Assembly (NCBI GenBank): GCA_015956445.1 | Contig: WIUZ02000001.1 | Location: 4,464,001 to 4,528,000, forward strand | Length of the DNA: 64,000 nucleotides | From: Thelephora terrestris | Lineage: Eukaryota > Basidiomycota > Agaricomycetes > Thelephorales > Thelephoraceae | Direction of reading: 5' to 3' | In this document: positions 36,761 to 60,834 of the stretch, one piece after another | Layout of the letters: each line of letters opens with the position of its first letter | Position numbering within the stretch: position 1 is the first letter of the stretch | Position numbers and translations under genes: made by a program | Notes under the pieces: model-generated | What the model was told of the DNA's origin: nothing | The model's input: only the letters and a program-made list of their open reading frames with translations | Databases searched by the model: none

Positions 36761-36959
36761 AACTGCGCACATAGTATTTTATCAAAATCCTGATTCCATG
36801 TGAAAAAGCCGACAGCACACGATAGAATGGCTGTGAGGAATCCTGCGTCTATTCAGTGACTCAAAGCGCAACAGAAATCACAGACTCAGTCGATGTAAGG
36901 CACTGAATTCTGGCGCTTACATGAAAGGCGACACAATTCACCTCGGTTTCAGTAGATTT

Positions 36960-39044: not shown

Positions 39045-40745
39045 ATGGCCAATTCTCACCATAAATCTATTCCAACTCAACCTATCGTCCCTCGCGCTAT
39101 GGACCAACAAAAAGGCCACACGTCGGTCTGGATATCGGGACCATCGCGGTCACCACGGAGGACTCAGATGAAGGTACGTCCGTTATCCATCTGCCTATGC
39201 CCCACCCCACACTGAAGATTGCTACGCCTACAGATCGCTAAAGAAACTCTACTGGGATCATCCGTGCAAGACTATTCGTTCTGGTAGCTTCGAGACGGAT
39301 CTCATAGAATGGTTCCCCGAAGGCGGCCTCAACGCCTCATACACATTTATCGACCAATGGGTTCATATCTACCTCGATAAAGGTCGTATCGAACGACTTT
39401 TTGTACATCTCGCCCATCGTTCAGCGCTTCAGCTTCAGCGACCGTGTCGTCGGTCATTGCCAACAATCTCAGCGTCCTCAACCATGCAGTAACTCAATGC
39501 GACATCACTCCCCATTCGTTCCGCAACCGTACATTTCATCGCAAACGCGCACACATTTCCTTTGAGTAGACCGCGATCACGAACGAAGCCGATGGACCGG
39601 GCGAAGGCTGCGAAACACTAACACTCAGCTTCTCCCCGTAGTTTGCAGCGCACCCAACATCCGCAAGGCTATGGGCTCAAAGAAGAGCGACACCCTCTCC
39701 GTCTACACGCCCACGATCGAACACGCTGTTGCCACATTTCTAGCCTTCGCTCCGATCGGTGTCGTTCACTCCGTCGACTTCGCTGGTTTTTCCTCCGAGT
39801 CGCTTCGAGACCACATCAAGGATTGCAAGTCCCCCGTTTCGATCACTACCGATGAGGACAGACGGGTGGAAAGGCTATTGCGACCGAGACTATCGTTGAT
39901 GCCGCTCTCAAGCATGGTTTGTCCAGAGGAGGACCGGAAACACTGTTTCCTGGACCAAGGGTCGCGACAAGCGGTGGCGTGAAGAGACCATCGAGGTCCC
40001 AAGCTACTATCCGCCTGAGGTTATGTCTGCTGAAGACCCGTTGTTCATCCTTCACGTGAGTATCGGAAGCTTATCCCCCATCCATACACTGTCACTGACA
40101 GTGCTCCTCGACGTTCCTAGGCCTCTGGATCTATTGAAAGAAAGTCGTCCACACTGCTGTTGGATGCCTTCTCGGAGCCCCACTGACCGTCAAGTACGCC
40201 TCTGTTGTCCACCCCGGGAGGACAGGTTCGCATGCATGGCCGATGTCGGCTAGGTCACCGGTCACCTGTATGTTCGCTATCTTACACCACTGCGTCTTCT
40301 CGTCTCATATCCGATCAGATACATCGTCTAAGGCCCCCTTCTCAACGGTGTCACCACCACCGTCCTCGAGTCTACCACTGCCTACCCTACTCCATCCCGT
40401 TATTGGCAGGTCGTCGAGAAGCGCAGGATAACCCATTTCTATACTGCTCCCACCGCCATCCGTCTCATTCGTCGTCTCGGTGAACGCCACACCCAAGCTG
40501 ACCTCAGCACGGCTCGAGTGCTGGGTATACCACTGTCGGTGAACCCATCAACCCCGAAGCTTGGGATCGGTGTGACGAGCACGTCGTAAAGAAGCAATGT
40601 GCCATCTTCGACACACGGTGGCACGCCGAGACCGGATCGATCACGATAACGCCATTCCCTGGTGCCTTTGAAACCAAACCAGGATCTGCCACTGCACCCT
40701 CCTACGACATCGAGCCAGTCATTCTCGACCCAGTGTCCGGACAAG
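39045..40745 (+). pseudogene. facA: Acetyl-CoA synthetase, second copy, heavily decayed
   Basis: Parallel to 26408-28140: MANSHHKSIPTQPIVPRAM, then [28 protein letters not shown], and fragments of the later exons including VILDPVSG. It has many frame changes and stops, and it ends abruptly near 40745, inside the exon after VSG, where the next GTPase module begins. The CTCTAC spelling at the start of exon 2 is the same as in the first copy. Intron positions are retained. Confidence 0.85.
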
Positions 40746-40892
40746 GCCTGATCAACTTCGCATGCACCTCCGGTGTACACCGAGGAAATCTCGCGGTCCC
40801 ATGCTGTCGCTGATTTGGCGTAGATAGGCGCAGATGATGGTGTGGCAGCAGATAAAGGGACACGCGGGACCCGTGGCGTTTTTCGCACCTCA

Positions 40893-42570
40893 AGCCAACA
40901 CTAAGCGTGCAGAATGCGTCCAGGTCCCGTCTGGAAGACTTTCGTCAGAGCAAGAAACTCTCCTTCTCCTAGTTGCATCGCCCTATTTTCTCTGCACTCA
41001 ATACCCTCAAGTTCAACTTTCTGAGGGTCGCCAGGCGCATTTTTCATCGACTCACAGATCCGACCGCCACTTCTCCCAACGTTGATGGCCGTAAGCGAAT
41101 GGGTGGGGAGGCCGTCGCAGGAGGAAGATCTCCAGACACATTCTAAAGTTAGCCTTCGTGCAGTGCCCACTCACGCGCCACCGCTCTCTTCGAACAGGGC
41201 AGATCAAGATATGCTAGACAACCGCTGGGGGTCCAGGTCTTTCGTAGCCATGTCCTTGCGCGTTCTCGCACATGAAACTACGTCCTACCGCACCCCTTGT
41301 AGGACGCGGGTGCTCGTGAAGCAGCTATCCAGGGCACCCCAGAGGTAGTCCTTGCCGATCAATGTCCCCGAAGTGACCGCGGCATTGCGGTTTCACGTGT
41401 TCTGCGTTCATCTCCATCATCCACGTCTCCTGGACCCTCAACTTACTTCGCTCCTCATCGAACTCATCGAATTCCAGACGATCTGCCGATTTGTCTTATT
41501 CGACGGAGTCATGGTGCAACGGGGAAAGAGAAAGTCTTTCGTGGGTATTGTCTTCCTCCTACTTTACCTGTGGATCGCAAAGGAAGCTCATCACATGTCT
41601 TCCAGCGTGGCCTGCCAATATTCACACTATTCATCAATCTCAGGCAAACCCAACATTAGCAAAAGTTACAATCTTGCTCAAACACGACTCAAGTTGCGGA
41701 CGCTTTCGATCCAGCAGGTCGTCTTGTTGTCTTGATCGACACTCCCGGGCTCGACTATGCCTCACCCAGCAAGAAAGGTGGTGTCTATATTCCCAACATC
41801 CCCGCAAGTCGTGAGTGGAATTGAAACTCAGCCCGTCGCCGACAGAATCGGTTGAACCCTACGCAGGATGTATCAAATCGTAACCGCACCTCACCATATC
41901 CAGACGCTCTTCGTGTGTCCCGGAAGTTCTGTTGCGACAGCGCTCCTGGGGCGTCAACACGAGGGAGGCAATGCACCCCGAAGTCGGTAACGAGCGAGCG
42001 GCCAAGTTGAAGAATTTCTCCGAGGTCATTTTCGGAAAAGGTGCTTGATTAGGAAGTCACGAAAGCACCGCTCTGTCGGCGGAGACTTAACCACCTCATC
42101 CCCGGGAATCGCCCCTGATCACTGCAGATCCAGAACGAACCTTTCGATGAACGCAGGGGTATTACCGCGACTGCCACTGAACAGGTAGCTCAGCGCCAAA
42201 ATCGAGACGGGATTACACGAAGCATGCGGTAAAGGACGAGGATGAAGAGAACGTGAAGGAACTTGACGTGGGTAGGGTATCCAGGCATTGGGGATGACGA
42301 GCAAAGAGTTCTTGAGCGACAGCAAGGGGATGGCATCAAATTTCGAACGACGGGTAGACGGGCCTACGGACGCGCTCCGATTCAATGCCGCAGCCGCAAA
42401 GAAGGAGAGAGCTCGAACACGCAAAGCAAACCATCTGCGTTCCAGGATCCTCGACTCTCCGCGACGGAGTTTCCTCAAGACTTGGGCATACCTTCATTAC
42501 ATCACGTTGTAGGGCAGTTGTTTTCTCGTGGACGTTGACTTATTTAGCCTCGTGCATGATGCCCACGTAG
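40893..42570 (+). pseudogene. P-loop GTPase with coiled-coil tail, decayed copy G3
   Basis: Order as in G1: TCGTAGCCATGTCCTTG region (41236), the VVLLS / LIDTPGLDYASPSK region with the DxxG motif DTPG at 41740-41760, then a shortened tail (42000-42500). Nearly identical, inverted, to 62340-64000. Continues into a fragment of module U (42640-43251, minus sense). Confidence 0.75.
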
Positions 42571-43240
42571 AACAATTCGAACTTCGTTCAGACTGCCCCG
42601 TGAATCTGTTGATTCAGAATCGTGATTTCTTGTGAGCAGACCAACAGTAAAATAACCCCTTCAATGTCCAGAGGCCTCCTGCCGCGGTTACTCACGCTAG
42701 TGGCCAGCCCTGGAGATGAGAACTTGGGTCCAAGTAGTCGAATGCTCTCCAAGGTGTGATACGGCTCAGGGAGGGGTCATCAAGGGCAAACGAGTCACGT
42801 CGTAATTTCCGCGGACCGCAACGAATTGTTTCAAATAGTATCCAATTACAAAAAATACTGTCGAGCACCAGTCGAGGGCATAGGCAAGGTTGATTACATC
42901 AGAATACTCGAGAATGTCGTGCCAAAACTGGGTGACCGCGCAAGTCGGACCACGGCACTAAATCAGAAAGCATTGACAGGTGAGATGTCACTGTAAGCCA
43001 GAGAAACTACACCTCAATCCCGATGTTTGTCCACCCGTTGCCTCTTATTGACGAGGGCCCGAGTGAATGACTTCTGTGGGATAGTCGTGAAAGGGGAAGA
43101 AGCGCCGAAATTTGACCCACCTCTAGCTGTCCGAAGAAACCCGATCCAACTCGTAATCGACCGTATCGAGGGGGACTTGAGATCTTTCCAGGCTTCGCGC
43201 TGATGTTATCGAATCTCAGCTGAAGTTGGGCATGGTCTGT
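40893..43240 (+). repeat. Inverted duplication, left copy (pairs with 61650-64000)
   Basis: Covers GTPase copy G3 and the 3' part of a U copy. Its reverse complement is found from 64000 back to about 61650 with very few differences; one 127-codon frame differs by only about three residues. The right copy reaches the window edge, so the full length is unknown. Confidence 0.9.
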
Positions 43241-43251: not shown

Positions 43252-44362
43252 CACAGTAATTATAATTAGATATAATAATAATTACGTTCTCACCGATTAA
43301 AAATGCCATCAAAATTAAATGTTTATTCCCCGGGTCGCAATCATAATCGTCCGGGAGATTCCAATTGCCGGCGGTCGATTATTATCGCTGTCGGGATAAA
43401 GATTGAATATTTATTTGGGCCAATGATATATAACGGATTATATAGAGATAATTTTTACATCTTCCCGCCCTTCCCTCACCCCAATGGACGCTGTCCAGTG
43501 TCCCCAATGCCACCGCCATTTCGGGCGAAAGGGCATCGCCACCCATCAAAAAAGCTGCAAGCGAAAAGTGGAGTCGGAGCAAGATCAGGCCGACTTCATG
43601 GCTAGGCGAAGGCGGAGGTTTCAGATGGAAGGTGAGTGGGCCTTGCTCGGCACGTGCAGATGTGTTGCTGACCTGCAACATTGTCTCTGACCCCGCACCG
43701 GCTCCAGATGCTCCCGCGATGGACGAGAGTGCCTCAGACCTCGTGTCGGACACTCCCGCGATGGACGATATTGGCGCCGATCCCCGTGTCACGCCATCAA
43801 CGACGAGTGGGGCTCCCCAGCTCCAGCACTCGGTGAGCTCACCTCGGCTAAAGTTTTCGTGGGTCCCGCTCACATAATCAGCCCCATCCGCCATCAATAT
43901 CAATCTCCGTGGACGAGATGGACACTGATCCCCTCGACATCGACAATGAGGGTGACGGCATGGAATGCGAGCATGGCTCGGATGCCAATTCTCAAGATGC
44001 GGATGACACAAGCAGCTTGGATGGCGATATCAGGGTTGAATACCATCCAAACAGTGGCCACAAGCACAAGACATTCACATTGGAAGAATTTCAACGTGCC
44101 CGCTCTGACGTACAACACACTCAACCAGCAGATCCTGAACCCTGGTTACCATTTAACACCAGAGAGGATTTTGAGTTTGCTGAAATCGCACAGCAATCAA
44201 GGATGTCAAAAGGCCAAATCAATGCATTGATTCGCCTTTTCCGGAAGTGCATCGATATTGGAAAGGAGGCTTTCACCTTCTCAAACTATAATGACATGCA
44301 TAAGACTCTGACACTTGCCTCGGAGAGACTTCCCAAGGTAGCTTCATAACCCTTCTATCTGT
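43252..44362 (+). mobile_element. Plavaka DNA transposon, left end only
   Basis: Homology to the duplicated U block stops just before CACAGTAATTATAATTAG (43252), a plausible CACTA/CMC-type terminus, and an AT-rich leader precedes the transposase gene. The element is cut at 44362 by the LTR retroelement. No remaining Plavaka sequence is seen right of 56557, so most of the transposase and the right terminus are missing. Confidence 0.7.
43484..44362 (+). CDS. Plavaka transposase, N-terminal part, interrupted
   Basis: Exons 43484-43631, 43708-43832 and 43882 onward, joined by GT-AG introns of 76 and 49 nt in frame. Residues 1-30 are a C2HC finger, CPQCHRHFGRKGIATHQKSC, typical of Plavaka transposase N-termini. 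An acidic linker (DIDNEGDGMECEHGSDANSQ) follows, then the conserved block DIRVEYHPNSGHKHKTFTLE, EPWLPFNTREDFEFAEIAQQ and MSKGQINALIRLFRKC. No frame damage is seen up to ERLPK near 44337. Possible donor GTAGCT follows; the reading frame then meets a stop and the LTR at 44363. The catalytic DDE part is not in the window. Confidence 0.75.
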
Positions 44363-45476
44363 TGTCGAGTTCGCTGGGGTTGTAGTGAAGAGGTCTATAA
44401 GAACTCTTACTAGTCCTTCTTGGTTTACTTAGAAGCTAAGCGTTAACAACTAAGTAGGCTGGTTGAGAAGTCAGTTATCCCGACTATCAACTCCACAGGG
44501 TGGGCGGGGTTTCGTACTTTCCGGCTCCTTGTCCTGATGAGTTCGCTGAAGGAGGTTGTAGGTCCTTCAGATGTGTTCAGAGGGGTTCAGTAACCTTTAT
44601 CACTACTGCACGTATATTCCCTGGTCCAAACACCTAGTAAGAATGTAAAGGGGGTTGCTGATCTTGATAAGAATGGCGTTCCTGATCTACGCTGATGATC
44701 GGGAATGGAGATAATGATGTGTGAAACTGATACAATCGAGGCTGTGTATGAGGCTGTGAAGAAGGCTGTGTAGAATGCTGTGCACTGTGGCTGTGTAAGT
44801 GGCTGTGAAGAAGGCTGTGTAGAATGCTGTGCACTGTGGCTGTGTAAGTGGCTGTGCTGTGGCTGTGTTAAGGGGGTGGCTGTGCTAATACTTCTGAGGC
44901 TGTGCTGATATGTCTGAGTAGTTTTGATGATCTGTCAATATACTGCTGAGGTACGTCCAAATGCTGCTGAGATACGTCTGATAACTTGATACTGCTGAAA
45001 CTTGAGAACCTGTCTTGATAAGATAAACTTCTTGATATGTCTGAGATACTGATACGTCGGATACCAATGTGGTACTATTACTAAATGTGTCTGTCACCTA
45101 GTCAGTCACTAGTCTGAGGTAGAATACTCTCTGCCTGAAGGGTCTGCCTTCAGCACTAACAGAGATAAGGATATTGCTACGTCACAGAGTCAAGTGTACT
45201 AAGCTTATTCAGAAGTCCAAACTTAGAACTTATTCACACAGAGGTGGGGCTCAAAATGGTATGTGATTACTGAAAATCACTCAACCACTCAGGCCTAAGG
45301 AGGTGAGGCAAAGTAGGGTCTTGGTGAAAAGGGGTAGAGTAAAAGAGGGTGAGTTATAGAGAGAAGAGGGGATAGAGGGGGCAACTACTGGCCAGTGGCC
45401 AACAGCTGTTGGGTAGAGAGAGAGAGGGGTAAAAGGTTATGGGTGAGTTGCCTTTCCTTAGAACTGGGGGTGAGTT

Positions 45477-45516
45477 CTTTATATACTTTTCCATGTGAGA
45501 ATATTCTAGAACGTTC
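45477..45516 (-). promoter_or_regulatory. Heat-shock element plus TATA box in the LTR (3' copy)
   Basis: GAATATTCTAGAACGTTC (45499-45516) is a perfect four-unit heat-shock element (GAAnnTTCnnGAAnnTTC). On the coding (minus) strand it is followed about 14 bases downstream by TATATAAAG (45485-45477). The same pair is at 56225-56242 and 56203-56211 in the 5' LTR, where it would drive the element. Confidence 0.7.
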
Positions 45517-45551
45517 TATGTCCTTCTACTGTATTCTATGGTAATTAATGG

Positions 45552-45626
45552 TGTGACAGGTGTCACAAGTGTGACAAAATGTCACGAAAGGTGTGACCGG
45601 TGTCACATGGGGTGTGACGTTCCGTC
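45552..45626. promoter_or_regulatory. Cluster of TGTGAC/GTCACA half-sites in the LTR
   Basis: GTGTGACAGGTGTCACA, GTGTGACAAAATGTCAC, GTGTGACCGGTGTCACA and GTGTGACGTTCCGTCAC are four successive inverted pairs in 75 bases, between the heat-shock element and the clustered GAA/TTC words. A binding array for a dimeric factor is inferred. Repeated in the other LTR at 56278-56352. Confidence 0.6.
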
Positions 45627-45903
45627 ACCTTCTAGAACATTCCGGCAAGTTCCAGGATGTTCCGGCGCATTCCAGGGTGTTCCTGAACATTCTGTAACAT
45701 TCTGTAACTTTCCATGAGTTTCTTGTCCTTATCTAATCTTATCTTATCTGATAAGACTGTTATCAAATCTAATCTAATCTTGCTGTGGTGAATTATCATA
45801 AATAATGACATGGTTGTTCTCATGTCCGACATCCGCGGGGAACTTTTAAACGATCGTCCCTGATCGCAATCATCCCAACTAGTCTAGAACAATAGTGACT
45901 TAT

Positions 45904-46224
45904 TTATGATAATGCACATAAGGTAGCTGCAATACCTTGAACAGCATAGTCTTGAGAAAAGTCAAATCCTATGTCTTGGAGGAGATATTCGATGTGCCGT
46001 ACAAATGACTCGTCGGTTTGCCCTACCATAAGGCATATAGACCAGGGGGCGCAGCGATGATGAATGAGGAATATTCGGTTATTGTTGTTTCCTAACTGAT
46101 CGACCATTGTCCGTAAGCGGGTGCGTTCGCTTTCGTTACAATATAGGTAGCAGAAAAGTTCGAGAGGGGTTGTCCAGTAAGTATCCAATCCTTGTGGATT
46201 TACGTGGTAGTGGATGATTTGCAT
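45904..46224 (-). CDS. Small-gene family member A inside the retroelement
   Basis: 106 residues, apparently a single exon. Core: TTPLELFCYLYCNESERTRL, then RIFLIHHRCAPW and DESFVRHIEYLLQD. It lines up with members B, C and D along the pattern hydrophobic-(D/E)-hydrophobic-x-Y-L, a basic helix, I-hydrophobic-x-H, and a final (D/E)-E-x-F helix. Most divergent of the four. No known domain recognised. Nearest gene to the 3' LTR. Confidence 0.55.
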   Translation of the reverse strand: MQIIHYHVNPQGLDTYWTTPLELFCYLYCNESERTRLRTMVDQLGNNNNRIFLIHHRCAPWSICLMVGQTDESFVRHIEYLLQDIGFDFSQDYAVQGIAATLCALS

Positions 46225-46470
46225 GTGAAGGAGAGGTAGGGTGTGATAGTGAGATGGTTTTGCCGTTGAAGGTGATGCGCTGGCAGACTCGGTTTGTAAC
46301 TACGTCAACTCCTTTTTTTGGGTTGTGTGTGTGTGGGTCCAGTCGAGTTGAGACGCCAATTCTTGTGTTATGACAATTTGTGGGTCCGTCTTTCCTTATT
46401 TAGGTCGACATTTTCTCATGATGTCATCTGCATGGTGGTGTAGGTGAGGCGAAGTACATGTGTGTAGTTC

Positions 46471-46891
46471 CTAACCAGCGCGGACTCGTTGTTCGGTGGC
46501 TAGCCTATCATTAATTAAATCTACGAACTCGTCATCACTGAGGTAGATATCAAGGCGTAATGGTGGGTTAAGGAGGGGGTGGACAATGTAGGTAGTGTCC
46601 CATCCTGTGAGCAGGATGTCTTCGGATATTTTACGGAGGAGGCGCCTGGCGCTCTGGTTTTGCTGGAGGTATTCGAGGACGTCTTCGGGGTTTGCCCAGT
46701 TTAATCCCATGTAGTCGACTACAAGGATTTCTTCGTAGAAATAGGGGTGGTGGTGTACCTTCCAGGGCGTTTCCCAGGAAAGGCTGAGCGCGCGTCAAAA
46801 ATCTTGATAAAAAATACGTAAGAAAAAGAGCGTACGTGCTTCTCCATTGGCGGGTGCAGGGGTCTAAAATAAAGCAGTGTTGCGTGTCCAT
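46471..46891 (-). CDS. Small-gene family member B inside the retroelement
   Basis: Probably one short intron within the span. The N-terminal part reads FILDPCTRQWRS; the main part reads DYMGLNWANPEDVLEYLQQN, SARRLLRKI, TTYIVHPLLNPPLRLDIY and SDDEFVDLINDRL. Closely parallel to member C, including the DYMG, LEYL and YIVHPL motifs. Function unknown. Confidence 0.6.
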
Positions 46892-47293
46892 GAGGGTACA
46901 CCGTAGAGTAAGCAGTGTTCTGGGGGGGGATAAGAACTAGGGGAAGGGAGAAAGAGAAAGGAAAGCGAGAGGAACATGCTGGTGAAGCAATGCGAATGAC
47001 AAATATTAAACGTGGGGAAGAAGGAAGCCATATACGTAATAAGTAATGATCCGGTGCCGAAAAGAAGGAGGCACCAGGGTCTCGATCGAAACATTGTGAT
47101 ATACTAAAATAAAGTTTGATGGCTTGGTGAACTGGAAAAGGGTGTCATCATCGGAAGTCCCATGATGAGATGATGAAATGTATGAATGATGAAAAGTCCG
47201 TTTATTCCTTGGTTGAACGAACGAAGGGGAAGGGAATAATGGGGCGTCGTAAATATAGGGGTGGCAAGGTAGGGAATACCGTACATAGGGTAA

Positions 47294-47729
47294 TTAAACG
47301 TTCCCAGAGTACTTGTCTGCTACCCTCTTTAAAGTATCCAGCCGTATAGTAACCTTGCGTAATATACTTTCCTCGCTGTCATGGGGGCCAAGGACTAGGG
47401 GTACCTCGAAAAGGGGGTGGACGATGTACATTACTCCTGCTCCTTGATACATGTAAGTCCAAGCTTGACGTGAGATCAGTTTTCGGGCGCTTTTCTTGGT
47501 CTTTAAGTATTCCAGGGCTTCGACGTCAGTCTTCCAGCCCTGTCCCATGTAATCGATGAGAGGTACGGTGTCGTATCTGTTGTACTCGTCTGAGCTTGGT
47601 GGGGTAGGGTTGATACTGGGGCCGATTTGAGGTCAGAGTGTCAAAATGTTGTGGATAGCGTAGAACTTACGCTAGTTCCCATTGATGTGTTTTGGGATCT
47701 TGAACGTAGTAAACCAATTTTACTCCCAT
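47294..47729 (-). CDS. Small-gene family member C inside the retroelement
   Basis: Probably one short intron within the span, in the same place as in member B. The N-terminal part reads MGVKLVYYVQDPKTHQWEL, and the main part VPLIDYMGQGWKTDVEALEY, SARKLIS, VMYIVHPLFEVPLVLG and ESILRKVTIRLDTLKRVAD. The YVQDPxTxQW lead and YIVHPLxxxPL core are shared with B. No signal peptide or membrane segment. Function unknown. Confidence 0.6.
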
Positions 47730-47980
47730 GATTTCCGATGTGTAGGTTTCTGGGTGTGCTGAGTGGGAATATGGAAGGTGGACACAAAGACAAAAATTGT
47801 GAGAGGTTGTTTGTTGTAACGTGTCGTTTTTTAGTCGTGACGTGGCATGTTTTATGAAACAATTACTAGTATTCTTATCTTTTTCCAACAAGGTAGCAAT
47901 TTTAATAGGGAAAAGATAAGATTGGAAGAATGCTCCGATACTAGTTTGTCAACTAAAATGTGCGCAATTTTTACTAAGGC

Positions 47981-48277
47981 TTAAGATGGGCGACAATGAG
48001 GGGAGGGAAGATTAAGGGACTTCTGGTACTCGATTTGCTCAATAAAAAATTCCTTGGTGGTTGTGGGGTGGAGAAGGAACGGGCATTCAAGGATTTCGTG
48101 ATATACCCAAATACTCTCCCAGGTAACTTGGCGTTGATTGTTGGCCTTCTTGAAAATTTGCTGACGTACGTTCGGATTTTCAAGGAGGTAGTCGAGGATG
48201 TCAATGGGGGTTTGAGGCTTCATGTTAGAGGGAATAGGGATGATGACGCAGTCCCCATTAGTGAAACCAAAGTCCAT
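47981..48277 (-). CDS. Small-gene family member D inside the retroelement
   Basis: From the ATG at 48277 the frame reads MDFGFTNGDCVIIPIPS then PQTPIDILDYLLENPNVRQQ, SIWVYHEILECPFLLHP and TKEFFIEQIEYQ. The (D)ILDYLLEN, basic helix, VYHE...PFLLHP and EFFIEQI segments align with LEYL, SARRL, YIVHPL and EFVDLI of member B. Farthest upstream of the four, separated from gag by a low-complexity spacer. Confidence 0.55.
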   Translation of the reverse strand: MDFGFTNGDCVIIPIPSNMKPQTPIDILDYLLENPNVRQQIFKKANNQRQVTWESIWVYHEILECPFLLHPTTTKEFFIEQIEYQKSLNLPSPHCRPS

Positions 48278-48649
48278 TTTGTGGTAGGGGGGGAAAGGGT
48301 GACGGTGAGATGGCTTCGAAAGGGTGAACAAATGACTGGCTGAGATGCAGAGGTAAGGTGAGGTAGGGCATTCAAGGTAGGAGGGAATTGTTAGGAGTCC
48401 TACCTTTTGGTCAGGTTCTGTTTGGAAAGAGGGGAGGGCAAAGAGCGTGGAGTGGCGGAGCAACTGGAATAAGTAGGGGTGAGGAAAAGGGGATGTCGCC
48501 GTTGAGCGCTCTGCTTCTTGATTAGGTTCTGTGATTGGGCGGTGGTTACCTTATTTAGATTAAACTGAATGACATAATTGACATAATTCCATGCAATTCT
48601 CTTTTTTCCTTGATGTGTTCCATTTGACATACGTAGACCTGTCTTCATG

Positions 48650-50511
48650 TGTTTGTGTGGGGCATAATTTCGTTGGGAGTGTTTAGTAGAGAAGGTGGTG
48701 GCTTAGCAAATTTGTGGGTCATGGTGCTTCTAACAATATGTTTTTCATAAAATCACCTGTACCCACAGGTACCCACAATGAACGGAAAAAAAAAGAAAGA
48801 GAAGAAAAAAAAGATATAAAGCGCAGGGGGGGGAGGGAAAAATAAAGGGTGGGTGGGAGGGATGTAGTCTAATTTAATTGAGGGAGAGAGCGAGCGAATT
48901 TAAACAGAAATTGAGGAAACGGCACGTTGATTGGAGGGTGTAGCAGTCGTGGGAAAAAAAATAATTGAGGGAAGAATATGCCAGGGAAGAGGCGGAAAAA
49001 TCGAGATCAAGAAAAAAAATGAGGAGGAACAAGAATGAGGCCGCGGGGAACTTTTTTCGGAGTGGAGTTACCAGACGACGCACAACCGCGGGGAACTTTT
49101 GAAGACAAAGTTCACCGGTTCGAAAGTTTTTCAGAGGAGAAAAACTTACCAACGAATTGCGGGGCTGTTCACTGATCAGGCGAAGTTAGAGGGAACTAAC
49201 TAAAGTCTCTGATTGGGTACGGGTAGATAGTGAGTAATCTTATCAACTGAGAAAAAGTCCGGCGGGGACGCTCGAGACCGTACGCAAAGGAGAATAAGCT
49301 AGCTATTAGGGGAGGGGCGGGCGGAAAGACAAATCGGGACACGGGATAGGGAACACGAGTGTATCGATCGACGGAGGTGGGGTAGAGTCCGGAAAAATTT
49401 TTAAACAAAAAGACGACGCGCGGGGTATGTAGACGGCGGGGCGGCGGTCAAGCGACGGAAGGAGAAAAGGAAGTGGGAGTGGGGAAGTAGGTGGGAAGGA
49501 AAAATAAAGTCGGGAGGGAAGTGAACGCTCGAGGTATATGGAAAGAGTGGGCGGCGTATACGGGCGGTGAGAAGATAAGGTGGGGTCGATGGAAGGAAGA
49601 GGGCGGAGGAGACGGTCTTGAGGCGCGAGTTCGCAGAACTCGGCTGGTCGAGAGAGAGGAAGGAGGTCTTGAGAGGCAACGAGTCTTGACGTCGCGGAGG
49701 TTAGTGAGTCCGGGGAAAGGGGAGAGGCTCGCTGCTTGTCAGGACGAGGCTAGGAGGAAAGTAATAGACGTCAGAATATACGCGAGAGGCAATTTGAAAC
49801 GGGGTGAGGGACGAGAGAGAGAAAGGGAGAGGGTATAGAAAACAGGCAAGATCTACTCAGCAGAAACCCGTTGTCCCTCCAAATTTTTGCTAGACTTCAA
49901 GATGTTGGGGAGACCTGGGACTGAGAGGGTGCCGATTTGTGCGAAGAGGTGAGATTTGAGAGGGAGGGGAGAGAAAGGCAAGGGGAGTAGGCAAAGACGA
50001 GAGAGAGGAAAAGGAGAGAGGGATTGGTGCTGCTGGAGGCGGCCGTTCGGCGTGAAAATGGTTGGAAATTGTAGGTTGGGGTCGGCGGATTGAGAAAAGA
50101 GAGTTTTGAGGGAGGCAGGGGTAAAGGCGGAGGTGTCGAAGGTCGAGAGGCAAGGTGTGTTTGAGGCGTGACGCGGTCGACGCGAGGAGTGTACCGGGAG
50201 TAAACGAGCGAACGGGAGACCACGCGGAGGGTGGCAAACGTCGTAGAGTTGGACGGCCAGTCGGTTCGCCAGGTTCCGAAGGGGAAAGAGAGAGATGGTA
50301 GAAGGCAGGAAGGAGAAAGGTGAGGGATGTGGGGAGCGGAGTGAAAGACTTTTCGCTTACCAGCGGAAGACGGGTTCAGGAACCGGAGTTCGGATCAGAG
50401 GTTTGACCAAATCCGATCCGGGTGACTGAGATTAGAATAAGTGTTTTGATGGCGCGCGCGATAATGAAAACGTCAGAGATGGGGCTGGGAGATTACGAGT
50501 TCGTTCTTACT
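48650..50511. other. Low-complexity spacer inside the retroelement
   Basis: Plus strand is strongly purine-rich (AGAGGAGGGG-type words), minus strand pyrimidine-rich. Frames of 90-115 codons are Pro/Ser/Leu-rich and are composition artefacts. Two copies of CCGCGGGGAACTTTT lie at 49041-49055 and 49086-49100; a third lies at 45833-45847, just inside the 3' LTR. Confidence 0.6.
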
Positions 50512-53500
50512 TTAGAAAACGCCGACGGATTTATTGTTAACATAGGAAGGGTGGTTTGCATGGGTGGCGTAGCTTGCGTTCGAGTTGGCGGCGTTGTCCG
50601 GGTAAAGAAGGTGAAGGGCGACTTGATAGAGTTGCTGATAACGAGTGGTGAGAGCGGTAATCTCGAGGCCGTGTTGCTTGAGCTGGTGTTCAATGCTGGG
50701 TCCAATGGCGAACTTGAGGGATGTGATTTCTGATAAAGGTACACTGTCCAAGTCACTTCGAGCCTGAACTTGATCAAGCTTCTCTTTGAATGCATTGATC
50801 TGATCTGTCAATTGTGACAGCTGCTTCTGTACTTCATTTGCTTTCTCAATTGAGGCTGCAATTGCGGACCGGTATTTCTTTCGTGCATGATCAGTGATCC
50901 ATTGATTTCCGGATTCTTCCTCTTTGTCTGTGCTTGGCTCTTCAGGTCTATTCGGCCTGGATCCTGGGTCGTCTGACCTATTCCATTCTTCTTGAATTGT
51001 CTCAAGTTTCTTGTACCGCATGGTAAGTTCTGATATGTTTTCTTCATGTTTTCCGTGATCGGTTAACCTTGATTCCACAGAACTTTCCCTTTCGTCGACG
51101 CCGGGTCCCTCGAGGTTATTCGGACTGGATCCTGGGTCGTTTGACCCATCTCTTTCCATTCCCATCGGTCTCCATACGTTTCTTGTGTCGGTAAGTTCGG
51201 ATATGTCGTTTTTGTGTTTTCCGTGATCGGTAATTTTTTGTTGATTAGACCTTTCATCGTCTTCTTCGTCTGGCCCACCAGGGCTATTTGGGCTGGATTC
51301 CAGGTCGTCTGACCCATCCATGTCCATTCTTCTCAGTTCTGGAGGTTTTTCCATGTCGGTAAGTGCGGATCTATTGAATTCGGTCTCCCACTCGTTTACC
51401 CACTCATTGTCTGTGCTATCTAGGTCTGCATTCTGGTTCCCTAGTACTGCTTCCGTTGCAAACACGCAGGCTTCTACGGCCACTGATCGTTCACGGCCTC
51501 CGGTTCTCCTTTGTTCCCGGTGCTCCCTTCGTTCGCACGATTGCATGTACCTTCGGAATTCGTCTCCTTGGGCCTTCTCGGTAAGTCGTCTCGTACGCCG
51601 TGTTCGCGTTACCTTGGCGATGGTGGACTGATTTTCTTCCTGTAGGTTCCATTTTCGTTTCCGGGAGGTTGGTAGGGTTGAGGGCGGATCCGGTTCAGGG
51701 GTAGCGAGAGTTTGAGAGGGTTGAGGGTTTTCCGGGTGGGGTGGCGTAGATACTTCGGTTTCGTATGGGTCAGGGTCGTTCGTTGCGGCCCTATCTTCAT
51801 TCTCTAAGTCTTCGCTACATAGCCTTGTCCACGGCTTCTGGTCGCGCATGGCTTTCTTTCGTTCGAGTTCACACAATGCATTCCATTCTTCGTTGGAAGC
51901 TCCTTTCCGGACCATTTTAATATATGTTTCGTACAGGTCCGAACTAATGGTATTTTCGTTCGACTGTTTATTTATATCTTCGTCCGAATATACTTCCGTC
52001 CCCTTTTCCGCGCGTGTTTCCTCCAGCTTCCGTAGATCTTCTTCCGTCCCGATCCGTCCGATTTCATCATCTGTCTCGCTTCTTCTGTCGTCTTCATCAA
52101 GCACTAGCGCTTCGCGTCGTTGCGCGGGCGTCGGTGGGTCTTCTCTCGCGATCGTTACTGGTGAGTAAATAAAATCATTTTCTCTTTCCTCCAGGGCTTC
52201 CGTTTCGACGCCGGCCATATTACTTCTGATCACGAGGCTTCCTTCTTCTTCCTCGCTGTCCGGTACCTCGCCTTCTTCAATTTCTTTATTTCCTCCTATT
52301 GCGTATACTCTTGCCTGGTAATCCTGTGGTTGATACCTATAATTTTTGTTGTTTTCTTCATTGTCCCGAGATCCATATGTAGAGGGAAGGGGTCTGATTT
52401 TTCGCCAACCTTTATTGGTAATAATTCTCAAATGAGAATTCCTACCATCTTCTATCCAAGTGGCTTTATGGTCTACACCCCATTCTCTTCCAAGCAGTAG
52501 CTGAAATCCTGCATTCTTTTTTACGTAGAGATTTCCGGGTGCCATAACTCTTCCTTTTGTAGTCTTCATTGTCATCTCTGCACAAGGTATCATTCCTGCA
52601 CATTGGGAGAGATTTCCGTCAACTGACATCATCGGAATCCTGTGTTCCTCGGCGTTGGACCAAGGTATGCCTGCTGCTTCTATTAACCTTTGATTAACAA
52701 TGTTGAGTTGGGATCCACTGTCAAAGACTCCAGTCATCATAGTCCCTGCCACATTGACTGGTATCTTGATCAATCCATCCCTGGGCACTGTTACCGTAGG
52801 CTCCACAAGGTCTGTTTCATCTTCTTGATCATAGTCTTCTTCATCTTCTGATTGTTCCTGGACTACAGCTTGAAATGGTTGCTGTTCTTCCTTTTCAATC
52901 ACCTCGGCGAGGAGGCCAATTTTCTGCTGCATTGGGACAGAGACCTCATGCCCTTGTTTCATTGCGCTCACAAGGCCTCGTCGCAAAGAAGGCGCAGCAT
53001 CGATTGCTTCCTGTACAGTTAGGGTAATGTTGGTGTTTAGTATTTTAGTGGCAATTGCTGAACTGTCTGGCTTCTTGGTAGTCCTGGGATTAGTGACTTT
53101 GGGACCATTGGTTTGCTCCAAATGCGCCGAGTCCTTCCTATTGTAGTTAGTAGGCTTTGCAGTGACCTCCTGGTCAACCTCCATTGGAAGCAACTGGTTG
53201 TCCGTTTTACCTTTAATTACGCCCTTGTTGGGGTTAGAGGCAGACCGGATGTTCCCCGTCTGGTTGCTGTTAAGATTGACGTGATTCTTGATTGGGTGCT
53301 GTGGCCTACCAGGACTCTTTGCTTCCCTGCTCCTGGGGAGCTTCTCCATCCCTTGGGGTCGGCTAGGTAAGACTTGCTGTACCTTCTTTCTGTGTTCCTT
53401 GCTGATTTGGGTGGTCCTTTCAACACCAAAAGCTTGACAGTGTTCTACCTCCCCAGAGGTCCATCCTAATTCCGCTTCTTGTTCATCAGTATCAGCATCG

Positions 53501-54981
53501 TCTTCATACCTATCCACTCCTATGTAGTTACACGCAGTTTCCAAAGTAGGGTTGTATGGCAAGGCTTCAGCATAATGGACTTCAGCTGCAACATGTTTAG
53601 TAATAGCTTGTATCCATGTCTCATTAGGTGCTCGGTAGATTCTTGAGTTGTCAGGCCACTGTAACCGTCCTGACGTTGGGTCCTTTACTATCTTCCCAGC
53701 TTTTACCAATTTGTTTATTTCCTCACATGCCCTAATGTGGTGACCTTGCTGTCCACAACCAAAACAGGTGTAGTTCTGTCCGATTGCGTTGGGGCCTGTT
53801 GCCATAGAGAAACTTTGAGGAGGGGGTTGAGACATTCTCTGGGGTGATGGATTGAAAGGTGGTCGATAGGAGGGATTTGGTCCTTGTCGTGACTGGGGGT
53901 TGGTGAATTGTTGGTTGCCAAAGTTCTGATGAGGTGGTAGATCCCTCTGGAATGGTCTTCTAGGTTGATTTGGTCTTGCTGAGTTTCGGTTAGGAGGAGG
54001 TTCTACGTAATTCTGGAGATGTGGGTACTGCTGAGCAAAGTGTACATATTTGACCCAGTACTTGGGGTCATCAATCTTGAGGTTACTCAGGTCATCCACT
54101 AGCTGGTTGAAGTCTTCATCCTGCTTTCCTTTGTGCTTCTTGGTCTTTGTGGGTAACTTAGGAGGAGATTTAGGTGGAGTCAGGGGTGACTTGTGTTGGA
54201 TAAGAGGCTTTGGTTCATCATCTGATTCGTCTTCTGAGTTATATCCTGAGAGCTTAAATGGCTTAGTGGATTCCTCTTGGTCTGACTCTTCTTCTTCAGA
54301 GGACTGGTATCCGCCTTTGGTTGCCAGGTGCTGATCAAACCTATAAGGGTTAAGGACTGAATCAGCTCCTTCTACTATGTCTGCAATGCTGAATGGCACT
54401 GTCACATCTAAGTGAGGTGTAACCATTCTCATCTGGGCTTCAACTTGTCGCCTGAAGGAGGCATTCAAACCTTCCCAGAAATATCTGTTGACATCTCTAG
54501 TGGAGATCTTCCTCATTTCTCTGGCACGTCCTACCAACTGATGGAATTTGATTTGATATTTCTTGAATCTGTCAAGGGTGTCCATTCGACGTTTTCTCCA
54601 TTTGGTAGTGAAGGCTTCAATTTTTCCCACATTCAGGGATCCTTGCTTGTCCCCAAAGAAGTAATCGAGCTCAACCAATAGAGTTCCATAGTCCCTTTTG
54701 GCATGGGAAGGCCAAGTTCGCAGCAGGTTAGCGATTCCAGGGCTACAGTATCGAATGAGTCCTTGATACTTTTCCTTTGATGAGGTGACGTCATAGCGGT
54801 TGCATAGGTGGTTATAATTCTCCAAGAAGGGCTCCAAGGTATTGGCAGCTCCTGTGAAGGTTTCTGGTGCACGTGATTTGTTGGGGGCTGGTAATTCCAA
54901 GTAGGAATTTGATTGAGTAAGGAGGTCTTCAACTCCATTGAAGGGATGTTGTTCGTTTTCTGTATCTGAGATATAAGTCAT
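50512..54981 (-). CDS. gag: Gag-protease polyprotein of the LTR retroelement, 1489 aa
   Basis: One long open frame from the ATG at 54981, about 107 bases inside the 5' LTR. Residues about 40-190 are a Ty3-type gag domain (FLENYNHLCNRYDVTSSKEK; LLVELDYFFGDK; TLDRFKKYQIKFHQLVGRAR). A CCHC zinc knuckle, CFGCGQQGHHIRAC, lies near 404-417. An aspartic-protease-like domain has GVFDSGSQLNIV near 748-759 and LLLGREWGVD further on. The C-terminal third is acidic, with a three-copy repeat (DHGKH...ISELT) and a terminal coiled coil. At 1489 residues it is much longer than a usual gag. It would form the particle shell and bind RNA; enzymes for copying would have to come from another element. Confidence 0.85.
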   Translation of the reverse strand: MTYISDTENEQHPFNGVEDLLTQSNSYLELPAPNKSRAPETFTGAANTLEPFLENYNHLCNRYDVTSSKEKYQGLIRYCSPGIANLLRTWPSHAKRDYGTLLVELDYFFGDKQGSLNVGKIEAFTTKWRKRRMDTLDRFKKYQIKFHQLVGRAREMRKISTRDVNRYFWEGLNASFRRQVEAQMRMVTPHLDVTVPFSIADIVEGADSVLNPYRFDQHLATKGGYQSSEEEESDQEESTKPFKLSGYNSEDESDDEPKPLIQHKSPLTPPKSPPKLPTKTKKHKGKQDEDFNQLVDDLSNLKIDDPKYWVKYVHFAQQYPHLQNYVEPPPNRNSARPNQPRRPFQRDLPPHQNFGNQQFTNPQSRQGPNPSYRPPFNPSPQRMSQPPPQSFSMATGPNAIGQNYTCFGCGQQGHHIRACEEINKLVKAGKIVKDPTSGRLQWPDNSRIYRAPNETWIQAITKHVAAEVHYAEALPYNPTLETACNYIGVDRYEDDADTDEQEAELGWTSGEVEHCQAFGVERTTQISKEHRKKVQQVLPSRPQGMEKLPRSREAKSPGRPQHPIKNHVNLNSNQTGNIRSASNPNKGVIKGKTDNQLLPMEVDQEVTAKPTNYNRKDSAHLEQTNGPKVTNPRTTKKPDSSAIATKILNTNITLTVQEAIDAAPSLRRGLVSAMKQGHEVSVPMQQKIGLLAEVIEKEEQQPFQAVVQEQSEDEEDYDQEDETDLVEPTVTVPRDGLIKIPVNVAGTMMTGVFDSGSQLNIVNQRLIEAAGIPWSNAEEHRIPMMSVDGNLSQCAGMIPCAEMTMKTTKGRVMAPGNLYVKKNAGFQLLLGREWGVDHKATWIEDGRNSHLRIITNKGWRKIRPLPSTYGSRDNEENNKNYRYQPQDYQARVYAIGGNKEIEEGEVPDSEEEEGSLVIRSNMAGVETEALEERENDFIYSPVTIAREDPPTPAQRREALVLDEDDRRSETDDEIGRIGTEEDLRKLEETRAEKGTEVYSDEDINKQSNENTISSDLYETYIKMVRKGASNEEWNALCELERKKAMRDQKPWTRLCSEDLENEDRAATNDPDPYETEVSTPPHPENPQPSQTLATPEPDPPSTLPTSRKRKWNLQEENQSTIAKVTRTRRTRRLTEKAQGDEFRRYMQSCERREHREQRRTGGRERSVAVEACVFATEAVLGNQNADLDSTDNEWVNEWETEFNRSALTDMEKPPELRRMDMDGSDDLESSPNSPGGPDEEDDERSNQQKITDHGKHKNDISELTDTRNVWRPMGMERDGSNDPGSSPNNLEGPGVDERESSVESRLTDHGKHEENISELTMRYKKLETIQEEWNRSDDPGSRPNRPEEPSTDKEEESGNQWITDHARKKYRSAIAASIEKANEVQKQLSQLTDQINAFKEKLDQVQARSDLDSVPLSEITSLKFAIGPSIEHQLKQHGLEITALTTRYQQLYQVALHLLYPDNAANSNASYATHANHPSYVNNKSVGVF
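50890..51335 (-). repeat. Three-copy coding repeat in the gag C-terminus
   Basis: About 55-residue units containing SDD(P/L)xSxPNxPxGP, then an acidic run, then (I/L)TDHGKHxxxISELT. The third unit ends ITDHARK. Seen in the DNA as CCTGGGTCGT / TTTTCCGTGATCGGT words near 50970, 51130 and 51300. Confidence 0.75.
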
Positions 54982-55088
54982 GTTGGTTGATGTAGAGGAG
55001 ATGGAGGGTGATGAAGGTGTGATGGTGGGAATGGTGTTTGTGGTGATAAGATGGTGTTTTATTGAAGACCCTCGCCGTGGGCTCCAGA

Positions 55089-56557
55089 TGTCGAGTTCGC
55101 TGGGGTTGTAGTGAAGAGGTCTATAAGAACTCTTACTAGTCCTTCTTGGTTTACTTAGAAGCTAAGCGTTAACAACTAAGTAGGCTGGTTGAGAAGTCAG
55201 TTATCCCGACTATCAACTCCACAGGGTGGGCGGGGTTTCGTACTTTCCGGCTCCTTGTCCTGATGAGTTCGCTGAAGGAGGTTGTAGGTCCTTCAGATGT
55301 GTTCAGAGGGGTTCAGTAACCTTTATCACTACTGCACGTATATTCCCTGGTCCAAACACCTAGTAAGAATGTAAAGGGGGTTGCTGATCTTGATAAGAAT
55401 GGCGTTCCTGATCTACGCTGATGATCGGGAATGGAGATAATGATGTGTGAAACTGATACAATCGAGGCTGTGTATGAGGCTGTGAAGAAGGCTGTGTAGA
55501 ATGCTGTGCACTGTGGCTGTGTAAGTGGCTGTGAAGAAGGCTGTGTAGAATGCTGTGCACTGTGGCTGTGTAAGTGGCTGTGCTGTGGCTGTGTTAAGGG
55601 GGTGGCTGTGCTAATACTTCTGAGGCTGTGCTGATATGTCTGAGTAGTTTTGATGATCTGTCAATATACTGCTGAGGTACGTCCAAATGCTGCTGAGATA
55701 CGTCTGATAACTTGATACTGCTGAAACTTGAGAACCTGTCTTGATAAGATAAACTTCTTGATATGTCTGAGATACTGATACGTCGGATACCAATGTGGTA
55801 CTATTACTAAATGTGTCTGTCACCTAGTCAGTCACTAGTCTGAGGTAGAATACTCTCTGCCTGAAGGGTCTGCCTTCAGCACTAACAGAGATAAGGATAT
55901 TGCTACGTCACAGAGTCAAGTGTACTAAGCTTATTCAGAAGTCCAAACTTAGAACTTATTCACACAGAGGTGGGGCTCAAAATGGTATGTGATTACTGAA
56001 AATCACTCAACCACTCAGGCCTAAGGAGGTGAGGCAAAGTAGGGTCTTGGTGAAAAGGGGTAGAGTAAAAGAGGGTGAGTTATAGAGAGAAGAGGGGATA
56101 GAGGGGGCAACTACTGGCCAGTGGCCAACAGCTGTTGGGTAGAGAGAGAGAGGGGTAAAAGGTTATGGGTGAGTTGCCTTTCCTTAGAACTGGGGGTGAG
56201 TTCTTTATATACTTTTCCATGTGAGAATATTCTAGAACGTTCTATGTCCTTCTACTGTATTCTATGGTAATTAATGGTGTGACAGGTGTCACAAGTGTGA
56301 CAAAATGTCACGAAAGGTGTGACCGGTGTCACATGGGGTGTGACGTTCCGTCACCTTCTAGAACATTCCGGCAAGTTCCAGGATGTTCCGGCGCATTCCA
56401 GGGTGTTCCTGAACATTCTGTAACATTCTGTAACTTTCCATGAGTTTCTTGTCCTTATCTAATCTTATCTTATCTGATAAGACTGTTATCAAATCTAATC
56501 TAATCTTGCTGTGGTGAATTATCATAAATAATGACATGGTTGTTCTCATGTCCGACA
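55089..56557 (-). repeat. 5' LTR of the gag-only retroelement
   Basis: 1469 bases identical by eye to 44363-45831. On the coding strand the order is (GATAA)-rich and GAA/TTC cluster, TGTGAC/GTCACA array, heat-shock element (56242-56225), TATATAAAG (56211-56203), transcribed part, primer-site-like sequence just inside. Confidence 0.95.
56203..56242 (-). promoter_or_regulatory. Probable promoter of the retroelement: heat-shock element and TATA box
   Basis: Same sites as 45477-45516, here in the 5' LTR upstream of gag, so this is the copy expected to drive transcription. Heat induction is an inference from the perfect HSF site. Confidence 0.7.
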
Positions 56558-56770
56558 ACGATTGCTTTATGCACCCATCGGTCACTTGCGGACACGTGGG
56601 TATCCCGGCACTTGTTCGCGTTGAACAACTACTCCCTGGACCATATCACGCCTTGAGGAGCATTCAACCACCTGCTTAACTCCCAGGGCCAGCAACCAGC
56701 CTGAGTAAACGCGGCAGGAGGCCTCCAGACCTCGAAGGTGTGATTCTGCTGTCGGTCTGCTCACACGAAA
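56558..56770 (+). other. 3' flank of module U, right of the LTR element
   Basis: ATTGCTTTATGCACCCATCG and following bases resemble 60543-60640 (downstream of U2). It therefore belongs to the duplicated G/U block, while the left side of the retroelement is Plavaka sequence. Confidence 0.6.
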
Positions 56771-56774
56771 TCAC

Positions 56775-58450
56775 GGTGTTGAATTCACATGATAGTCGGG
56801 CATTTCGGTTTCTTTACATGGTTATTTGCACAAGGCTATATAAGCCAATATCCACGAGAGAAAACAACCACCCACATCTTGATGTCGTGGAAGTGATGTC
56901 CTCCGATCTGAGGAAAATCTGTCGCGGAAATTCGGGGATCCTGGAACGCACATCGTCTTCTTCACATAGTCGAGCTGTCTCATTCTTTAAAGATGTGCCA
57001 TTAGAACGGACAGTGTCCCTGAACTCGTCGACCTGTCGTTTGTAGTCAGATGCCATCCCCTTGCTATCTGTCTGAAACTCTTCGACCTTAATTGGATCCC
57101 CACGTCAAGTCCCTTCGCGAGCTCTTCATCCTTGTTCTTTACCGCCTGCTCCGCATCATCCCCATTTCCCGTTGGCGCCTCGATCTGGGCGTTGAGCACC
57201 CTGACCAGCTCCACGCCAGCGGCAGTCGCGGGGATACCCTTGCATTCATCTCCGAGCTCGTTCTGGATCTGCAGTGATCTGGGGAGATTGCAGGGGATGA
57301 GGCGGATAAGACTTTCCGCCGACGGAGCGGTGCTCTCGAGACGTCCTGTCCGAGCACCTCTTCCGAAAATGGCCTCGAAGAGATTCTTCGACTTGAACTC
57401 TCGCTCGTTGCCAACCTCGTGGTCCATTGGCGTGTTGACACCGGGCGCTGTCGCCACAAAGCTTCCGGAATGCGCCAGACTCCTTCCTTGATGTCAGTAT
57501 CGCGGACATCTTGGGGTCGGGGATCCGGTGGAAATAAAGGGCGTTAGCGAGCTTGCTTCGTCGTTCGTATCTGGAGAATTTGACGTGCGGTTACGACGCG
57601 ATACGTGGTTCAATCAATTTTTTTGGCGACCGACTCACTTCAAACTTCACTTACAAGTCTGCGGGCAATGCGGCGATCGTCTTGACAATATCCGTGTCGT
57701 TGGGCAAGGCACCGTCTAATCCGAGAGTATCCATCAAGATGACACGACGACCGGTTAGATCGAAAGCGTCCGCAACTTAAGCCGTGTTCGTGCAAGTTCG
57801 TCGCCTTTTTCTAATGCGGAGGTGGAAATCGCTTGAGCCTGGTGAATAGCGTGAATCGTGACGGGGCAAGGGGACGATAAGCTCCCTTGGCGATGGTACA
57901 GAAAAAAAACAGTACGCACGAAGAACTTCTTCATTTCTTGTTGTTCCATGACTCCTTCGAATAAGGTAAATCGGCAGATCGTCTGATTAGATGAGGAGCG
58001 AAGTGATTTGAGGGTCCAGGAGACGTTAACAATGGGGATGAACGAAGAATACGTGGAAACCCAACGCCACGGTTACTTCGGGGACACCAGTACGCGATGG
58101 CTACATCTGGGTGCCCGGGATAGCTGCTTCACGAGCACCCGCATCCTACAAATGGTGCGGTAGGACGTGGTTTCGTGTAAGAGAAAGCCCAAGGACATGG
58201 CTACGAAAGACTTGGACCCCCGGCGGTTGTCTAGCGTATCGTGCTCTACCCTGTTCGAGGAGAGCGGTGGCGCGCAATTGGGTACCGCACGAGGACTAAC
58301 TTAAGGATACGTCTGGAAGTCCCCCTCCTTCGACGGCCTTCGCACACGTTCGCTTACGACGACCATACGGCTATCAACGTTGGGAGACGTGGCGGTTGCA
58401 TCTGTAAGTCGATTGAGAGTACGCCAGGCGACCCTCGGAAGTGAAACTGG
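56775..58450 (-). pseudogene. P-loop GTPase with coiled-coil tail, decayed copy G4
   Basis: Minus-sense copy closest to G1: shared TCTCGTGGATATTGG end, ARLCEEDDVRSRIPEFPRQI, NARDELGDECKGIPATAAGV-like tail, and upstream the CGAACAGGGTAGAGCACGAT and CTGGGGGTCC region. The G-domain remnant lies around 57600-57780 (VTILIDTLGLDGALPND-like). Broken by frame changes and stops. Confidence 0.75.
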
Positions 58451-60560: not shown

Positions 60561-60834
60561 TGGTCACCGTTGCACATGCGCACTCGGAGGCCTCCCGGCG
60601 GTGTTCACCTTGAACGACTTATCCTAAACTCTGCTACATCGCAAGGATTCAACTACTCGGGACTCAAGTTTCCACCTCTAGAGCAAGTGCCGAGGCTACC
60701 CACCAAATGTGACGAGGGCCTCGTACCGCCGCCAAGACTGTGGTGACCGGAATCCGCTAACCGAAATCGACTGAAATCAAGGTGCGGTGTTTTTCACTGC
60801 GCCTGATCGCATGTGCTGTTCCTTTGGTCACATG

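Follow-up and report, generated by a model that had tools for sequence, protein, structure and literature searches.

Why would a retrotransposon with a gag gene and no pol carry four related small genes? The question is raised by a 64,000-nucleotide stretch of the Thelephora terrestris genome (assembly GCA_015956445.1, contig WIUZ02000001.1, positions 4,464,001 to 4,528,000; hereafter the window, C1:4464001-4528000 in the 40.6 Mb in 60 contigs that were searched), in which a long terminal repeat (LTR) element of 12,195 bp lies on the minus strand at 44363-56557. An earlier note on the letters of the window had described the four genes, A to D, as cargo carried in place of pol in a gag-only element. 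Our analysis places them differently: the gene cluster, here called the cassette, is the native module between pol and the 3' LTR of a Ty3/Gypsy-type family whose elements are very large, lies on the sense strand of the element, and was kept in the window copy when pol was removed by deletion.

The coordinates given earlier for the four genes, 45904-48277 on one coding strand, were right, the strand being minus. The stop codon of A lies at 45904 and the start codon of D at 48277, and the order of transcription between gag and the 3' LTR is D, C, B, A:

47981-48277, minus strand: gene D, 98 amino acids, no intron required
47671-47729, minus strand: gene C, exon 1, containing DPKTHQW
47616-47670, minus strand: gene C, intron of 55 nucleotides, GT...AG, phase 2, GT/AG ends intact in 14 of 14 aligned loci
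47294-47615, minus strand: gene C, exon 2, ratio of non-synonymous to synonymous change (pN/pS) 0.19-0.20, stop codon in 3 of 14 copies
46836-46891, minus strand: gene B, exon 1, containing DPCTRQW
46784-46835, minus strand: gene B, intron of 52 nucleotides, GT...AG, phase 2, GT/AG ends intact in 14 of 14 aligned loci
46471-46783, minus strand: gene B, exon 2, pN/pS 0.25
45904-46224, minus strand: gene A, 106 amino acids, no intron required, pN/pS 0.35, predicted local distance difference test score (pLDDT) of the model 79

The intron of gene B shows single-base indels among copies. The DPxTxQW segment, which B and C had been said to share at their N-termini, proved to be a separate first exon in both genes, with a phase-2 intron at the matching position. 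A longer pattern had been attributed to all four genes; in its strict form, DYMG...(V/I)LEYL...SAR...YIVHPL, it was confined to B and C, and A and D are joined to these by profiles only. With B as query against the whole genome, gene C of the window was matched at 35% identity (E 9.6e-11) and gene D of the window weakly (24% identity, E 0.026), and all 35 matches of A, used as a single query against the whole genome, were A-type genes. Profiles of A, B/C and D were built from genome copies and compared by hhalign, with 100 column shuffles per pair as controls. The comparison of B/C with D gave a score of 66.0 (E 2e-11, probability 97%), A with D 33.5 (E 1.9e-5, probability 78%) and A with B/C 33.4 (E 2.7e-5, probability 75%), while the highest score among the shuffled controls was 21.5. 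The mutual relationship proposed in the earlier note is thereby borne out, and at the level of profile similarity A, B, C and D are shown to be tandem paralogues of one family.

Coding constraint was assessed on 23 of 63 loci, taken as one or two per element with matches below 60% identity excluded; the broken copy L041 was additionally excluded from part of the runs. In the true frame pN/pS was 0.35 for A, 0.25 for B and 0.19-0.20 for C, compared with 0.66-1.70 for the same genes in two other forward frames and in the antisense frame tested. A, B and C are thus shown to be under frame-specific purifying selection at the level of gag (0.31; 11 sequences), which answers for these genes the alternative raised with the first description, that the region is non-coding. 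Gene D was represented by four near-identical copies with 4 synonymous and 4 non-synonymous pairwise differences. Its ratio of 0.26 in the true frame did not differ from those in its other frames (0.33 and 0.30), and because of this the coding status of D, which is too little diverged, is not established by the substitution test.

The distribution of the cassette across the genome decides between cargo and native module. A table of elements was drawn up from selected rows of the genome searches, namely 31 of 40 for gag, 20 of 120 for reverse transcriptase (RT), 21 of 147 for integrase, 29 of 35 for A, 34 of 59 for the B query (as 33 entries), 15 of 41 for the C query and 30 of 51 for the D query. 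RT rows were chosen by the shape of the match (profile 2-204, 543 bp) and integrase rows by location. Family counts are lower bounds, because the search scored only the best candidates and read no introns. Clusters containing A numbered 29, all of them with a D-type and a B-type gene and 15 with C. RT and integrase lay directly upstream in 20 of the 29, in the order RT-IN-D-(C)-B-A (IN, integrase), and of these 20 clusters 12 also had gag within their group; one cluster (C43) had integrase only, and eight had neither enzyme. Conversely, all 20 RT matches of the shape typical of this clade were followed by D or D', B and A. Since 20 of 29 clusters and every clade-shaped RT match show this arrangement, the cassette is native to the region between pol and the 3' LTR. 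More distant relatives kept the same gene order, with A at 41-44% and D at 33-43% identity, the genome search with D yielding 15 further relatives in the latter range.

The pol-bearing relatives are large. The copy at C59:12506-31069 measures 18,564 bp and has the same four bases on both flanks. The pol of the C16 copy is an open frame of 1229 amino acids, and a 1032-residue piece of it (L061) matched RVT_1, RT_RNaseH, Integrase_H2C2 and rve in that order, above cut-offs. By this domain order alone the full-length relatives would be filed as Ty3/Gypsy-type. The recurrence of the small genes beside related gag genes, foreseen in the earlier note, was seen in many copies of the genome; its label of a gag-only element fits the window copy and does not fit the family, most of whose clusters (20 of 29) stand beside RT and integrase genes. 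The sole place matched beyond the mapped clusters was C1:159909-160848, with B and D fragments, and thus no host source gene was seen in the genome. Gene C was limited to the subfamily of the window copy, so that D, B and A look older and C appears to be a later duplicate of B. The presence of C in 15 of 29 clusters, against D-type, B-type and A genes in all 29, fits the expansion by duplication within the element that had been suggested.

How the window copy came to lack pol can be read from its alignment with the pol-bearing C16 copy:

48699-48722, minus strand: remaining first eight codons of pol
48674-48698, minus strand: deletion junction, with about 3.6 kb (RT, RNase H and integrase) gone relative to C16

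The two copies are 91% identical over 48937-48699, where the start codon and seven more codons of pol are retained, and the match resumes at 48673, at about 77% identity, approximately 60 bases past the C16 pol stop. Genome-wide profile searches gave no RT or integrase match inside 44363-56557, in line with the first description. The notion that the cluster took the place of pol has to be given up for the lineage of the window, given the eight pol codons at 48699-48722 and the RT and integrase upstream in 20 of 29 clusters. The window copy is a pol-deletion derivative, in which a single deletion took out RT, RNase H and integrase. The same junction is crossed by three other D-type copies (C1b, C56 and C5), so the deletion was inherited and copied; a pol-less lineage that was copied on must in turn have used the enzymes of pol-bearing relatives. 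Such copies need not be short: that on C56 spans 17,979 bp, its stretch from gag to D having been read only in part. The D segment at high identity was found only in the window, C1b, C56 and C5 copies, and the C-B-A part of the window copy is 97% identical to that of the pol-bearing C59 and C2 copies and 93-94% to that of C16, so recombination between lineages has taken place.

The cassette is also retained in a second pol-less group (C3, C23, C2c and C60). Here the leader block described below and a start codon stand in the same place, followed by a B-type gene (C60) or a remnant of B (C3, C23 and C2c). In this group a duplicated small gene does occupy the former place of pol.

The frame of the window element comprises the following features:

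55089-56557, minus strand: 5' LTR, 1469 bp, TGTCGG...CGACA, 100% identical to the 3' LTR
44363-45831, minus strand: 3' LTR, 1469 bp, 100% identical to the 5' LTR
55067-55086, minus strand: likely primer-binding site, two bases past the 5' LTR
50512-54981, minus strand: gag-type open reading frame (ORF), 1489 amino acids counted from the first in-frame MTYISD methionine (at 54981)

The LTR ends of the family, TGTCGG...CGACA, are of the TG...CA type, and the first 14 bases past the LTR were invariant in the nine loci showing the 5' LTR end (L001-L007, L009 and L011). Matches to a CCHC knuckle (E 0.0026) and to an aspartic-protease-like stretch (E 0.053) in the gag-type ORF lie under the Pfam curated cut-offs. 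This ORF is shorter than the gag of other copies: at the matching place C1b has an additional in-frame stretch of 2820 nucleotides that is open in one frame throughout (939 amino acids; L005:5741-7020 with L062:1-1540). Since the ORF of C1b runs on through this stretch, which the window copy lacks, the full-size gag of the family may exceed 2000 amino acids; the short form also occurs in the pol-bearing C59b copy.

A 4-bp target duplication was present in five of the six copies with both flanks in view. The exception is the window copy, with TCGT on its 5' side (flank 56558-56571) and ACAG on its 3' side (flank 44349-44362). The C1b copy lies about 37 kb away in the opposite orientation, and its 5' flank (L005) is ACAG, as is the 3' flank of the window copy. 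An inversion between the two, or a switch in the assembly, would explain the mismatched flanks, and the LTR pair of the window may stem from two separate insertions. Because the copy without target duplication may combine two copies, the identity of its LTRs was not used for dating the insertion.

Outside the genes, several short blocks are conserved:

45824-45887, minus strand: 64-bp block whose last eight bases belong to the 3' LTR; identity with the other subfamily 93.8-95.3% (L056, L058, L059 and L060)
49041-49053, minus strand: central copy of the core AAGTTCCCCGCGG, with a second central copy at 49086-49098
48753-48777, minus strand: leader block directly before the start of pol, almost unchanged across the 9 loci (of 9) in which it was found

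No polypurine tract was found before the 3' LTR, and the conserved AAGTTCCCCGCGG block stands in its place. Across subfamilies that share about 40% identity in their proteins, this block keeps an identity of about 95%; it is not purine-rich and is likely the region of plus-strand priming and of the LTR end. In the window, C1b, C56, C5, C59b and C60 copies, its 13-base core is also present between gag and pol, in the manner of a central priming site. The 25 bases of the leader block hold two overlapping short inverted repeats around GGTACC. The block is common to the pol-bearing C16 copy and both pol-less groups, and could be a splice acceptor, part of a promoter or a protein site.

Target choice also looked particular. 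CG was central in the 4-base LTR flank at 21 of 22 insertion sites, suggesting a CpG-centred preference; CG has a background frequency of 0.057 in the part of the window that the element does not cover (binomial P 1.9e-25, with sites taken as independent and the pattern chosen post hoc). The LTR/host borders used were L001-L007, L009, L011, L014-L018, L031, L033-L036, L038, L039, L041, L045, L046, L053, L056, L059 and L060.

The surroundings of the element are themselves rich in repeats. At 1-2900 of the window, a 2.2-kb stretch is self-complementary at 87% and forms a large palindrome with inner repeats. Kilobase repeats of 75-91% identity, mostly inverted, lie around the element (61648-64000 with 40894-43238; 56811-58331 with 23586-25123; 39013-40749 with 26374-28132; 59348-60784 with 36939-38292) and are a repeated gene or segment cluster. 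Units of about 100 bp recur in both orientations at 8508-9246, 12511-13743 and 18222-18750, with many pairs 85-92% identical.

Searches for known domains and folds gave little that would point to a function of the small proteins. Pfam returned no hit for A to D up to E 1, a profile search of the PDB nothing significant (best hit E 0.81), and Foldseek no match up to E 0.001 for A in PDB and BFVD or for D in PDB. A scan of prokaryote genome contigs with exon 2 of C yielded 113 stretches matching a pattern, none of which was confirmed. AlphaFold models built from the four window proteins reached a mean pLDDT of 79 for A and 82 for D, with the same predicted order of elements in both, beta-alpha-alpha-beta-beta-alpha; the two models are not independent, because both alignments contain the same four proteins. 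This order resembles that of the KH type I fold, but the best 50 matches of each PDB search included no structure labelled as KH, and such a fold is not claimed.

Taken together, these results are probably best explained by a cassette of tandem paralogues that outlasted the loss of pol in copies receiving their enzymes in trans, the small proteins perhaps serving as RNA or particle factors. The anatomical part of this explanation we regard as nearly certain; the functional step is held tentatively, with less than even confidence. Under it, the small proteins would be single-domain factors acting on the element's own RNA or on the Gag particle. They might, for example, protect genomic RNA that contains the introns from splicing and see to its export, or be assembled with it. 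Pol could then be supplied by other copies, and Gag and the small proteins would be needed in cis or in quantity. Such a role would explain why pol can be provided in trans while gag and the cassette stay, and it would also explain the survival of the B and C introns through retrotransposition. As these introns are on the sense strand and retained, there are two scenarios: splicing spares the RNA that is packaged, or B and C are expressed from separate transcripts. Both fit a role in RNA handling or in the particle. Packaging, helper use and the countering of host defence, named in the earlier note, stay hypothetical roles.

Several observations weigh against this explanation. One is that the introns could belong to separate transcripts. 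Plain RNA binding is not suggested by the proteins, since A, B and D are acidic (isoelectric point 4.9-5.5) and C is near neutral (7.9). The models were built on four sequences only and matched no known fold. In pol-less copies pN/pS was slightly above that in pol-bearing ones (0.36 and 0.33 for A, 0.27 and 0.21 for B, and 0.22 and 0.15 for C, figures to which no significance test was applied), and some pol-less cassettes are damaged, with the frame of A split in C1b and a stop in the C gene of the C5 copy. Moreover, 8 of 28 gag loci had no cassette in the same group. Three of these have a likely or possible explanation: the C60 groups at 709757 and 745348 have 4-bp flanks that agree, so an insertion has very likely divided a single element there; the gag at C2:1010750 may belong with the cluster at C2:985005; and the C20 locus lies 8 kb from a contig end. 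The other five, including C37 (98% identical to the window gag) and C23:1056932 (93%), are unexplained, and the cassette is therefore not strictly required for a copy to exist.

Alternatively, the cassette may counter host silencing or restriction, its duplicates having diverged to deal with different factors of the host. A precedent comes from certain plant DNA transposons that encode anti-silencing proteins. The small paralogues, the fastest divergence, that of A (pN/pS 0.35), and the gain of C in one subfamily would suit such a role, from which pol-less copies would still benefit; pooled ratios of 0.19-0.35, however, give no sign of positive selection, and neither a domain nor a fold points in this direction. 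We consider this possible and somewhat unlikely. Improbable to a greater degree is a set of cofactors that serve integration or the transport of cDNA, with target choice as one example: the cassette directly follows integrase and target choice is sharp (CG in the middle of the flank at 21 of 22 sites), but pol-less copies would receive such factors in trans together with integrase and would have no reason to retain them. The position between pol and the 3' LTR matches that of env, yet proteins of 98-126 amino acids with no transmembrane segment in A to D (highest 19-residue Kyte-Doolittle means 0.46-1.41) make an Env-like or other membrane protein very improbable, and this candidate was rejected.

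Cargo replacing pol in gag-only elements, or captured host genes, fares marginally worse still. The layout of the window copy and the B-type gene or remnant at the pol start of the second pol-less group speak for it, but RT and integrase precede most clusters, the window copy retains the start of pol, and no host source gene was seen in this genome. A reading of the frames as functionless sequence, arisen by chance or decayed, can practically be dismissed, and was rejected for A, B and C: stops occur in some copies (3 of 14 C rows), the C43 copy is broken in several genes and D alone was not shown to be coding by its substitution pattern, but the frame-specific constraint on A, B and C, the order conserved in 29 clusters and the distant A and D relatives with the same order are against it.

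LTR retrotransposons are usually thought to need only gag and pol. If elements that dropped pol still keep a selected cassette duplicated in tandem, helpers may not readily be able to take over its task, and the genome offers a natural comparison between 20 clusters with RT and integrase and eight with neither, the cassette being present in all. The cassette also offers a concrete set of small proteins open to testing. A broader proposal would be that this lineage built an accessory set by tandem duplication of one new small domain, in a layout like that of complex retroviruses; that the set acts in cis on RNA or the particle and so was kept after pol loss; that plus-strand synthesis begins at a conserved tract that is not purine-rich and has central copies; and that integration takes place at CpG with a 4-bp duplication. 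This broader proposal is speculative and, in our view, unlikely to hold.

Among known systems, TR-GAG elements are close to the window copy. These are LTR elements with gag, without pol or other coding capacity, that are mobilised in trans by autonomous relatives. The window copy resembles them in its identical LTRs, its gag-type ORF (weak matches) and the lack of RT and integrase, and differs in its four-gene cassette, of which A, B and C are constrained, and in the remnant of the pol start. Mobilisation in trans is presumed for the window copy as well; what was observed is a deletion junction common to four copies and 20 pol-bearing relatives, and not movement itself.

Plant elements are known with sense-oriented extra ORFs between pol and the 3' LTR (PMC7264820), and share with the present family the presence of such genes in most copies; the plant genes are env-like with membrane segments, whereas here several paralogous, intron-bearing small genes without membrane segments are found, in a fungus. 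Retand carries antisense TRP28 ORFs (PMC11963269). It is similar in its long region between pol and the 3' LTR, its conserved extra ORFs of unknown role and its non-autonomous copies, but its ORFs are antisense rather than sense, and its abstract names no tandem set of paralogues. In LTR retrotransposons of bdelloid rotifers, varied ORF3s follow pol (PMC5408684); these are of esterase, exonuclease or env types, in contrast to the single new small-domain family in tandem described here. A model for the proposed role is suggested by CERV of Cer1 in C. elegans, an accessory protein required for the export of unspliced genomic RNA (PMC10309623). It too is an accessory protein of an LTR element, made from a spliced mRNA; its function has been demonstrated, whereas that of the cassette is proposed by inference.

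In the passages covered of two fungal surveys, one of LTR elements (PMC3248453) and one of Gypsy elements (PMC2864245), no such cassette appears, although a figure legend in the latter names an additional ORF of unknown function. Among the papers listed in literature searches (for example 20 of 124), in a scope that did not extend to subscription papers and repeat databases, none described accessory genes in the form of tandem paralogues for an LTR element of a fungus, judging by titles and abstract openings. Extra ORFs in LTR retrotransposons as such are already known; what appears new in this family is the tandem cassette of paralogous small genes.

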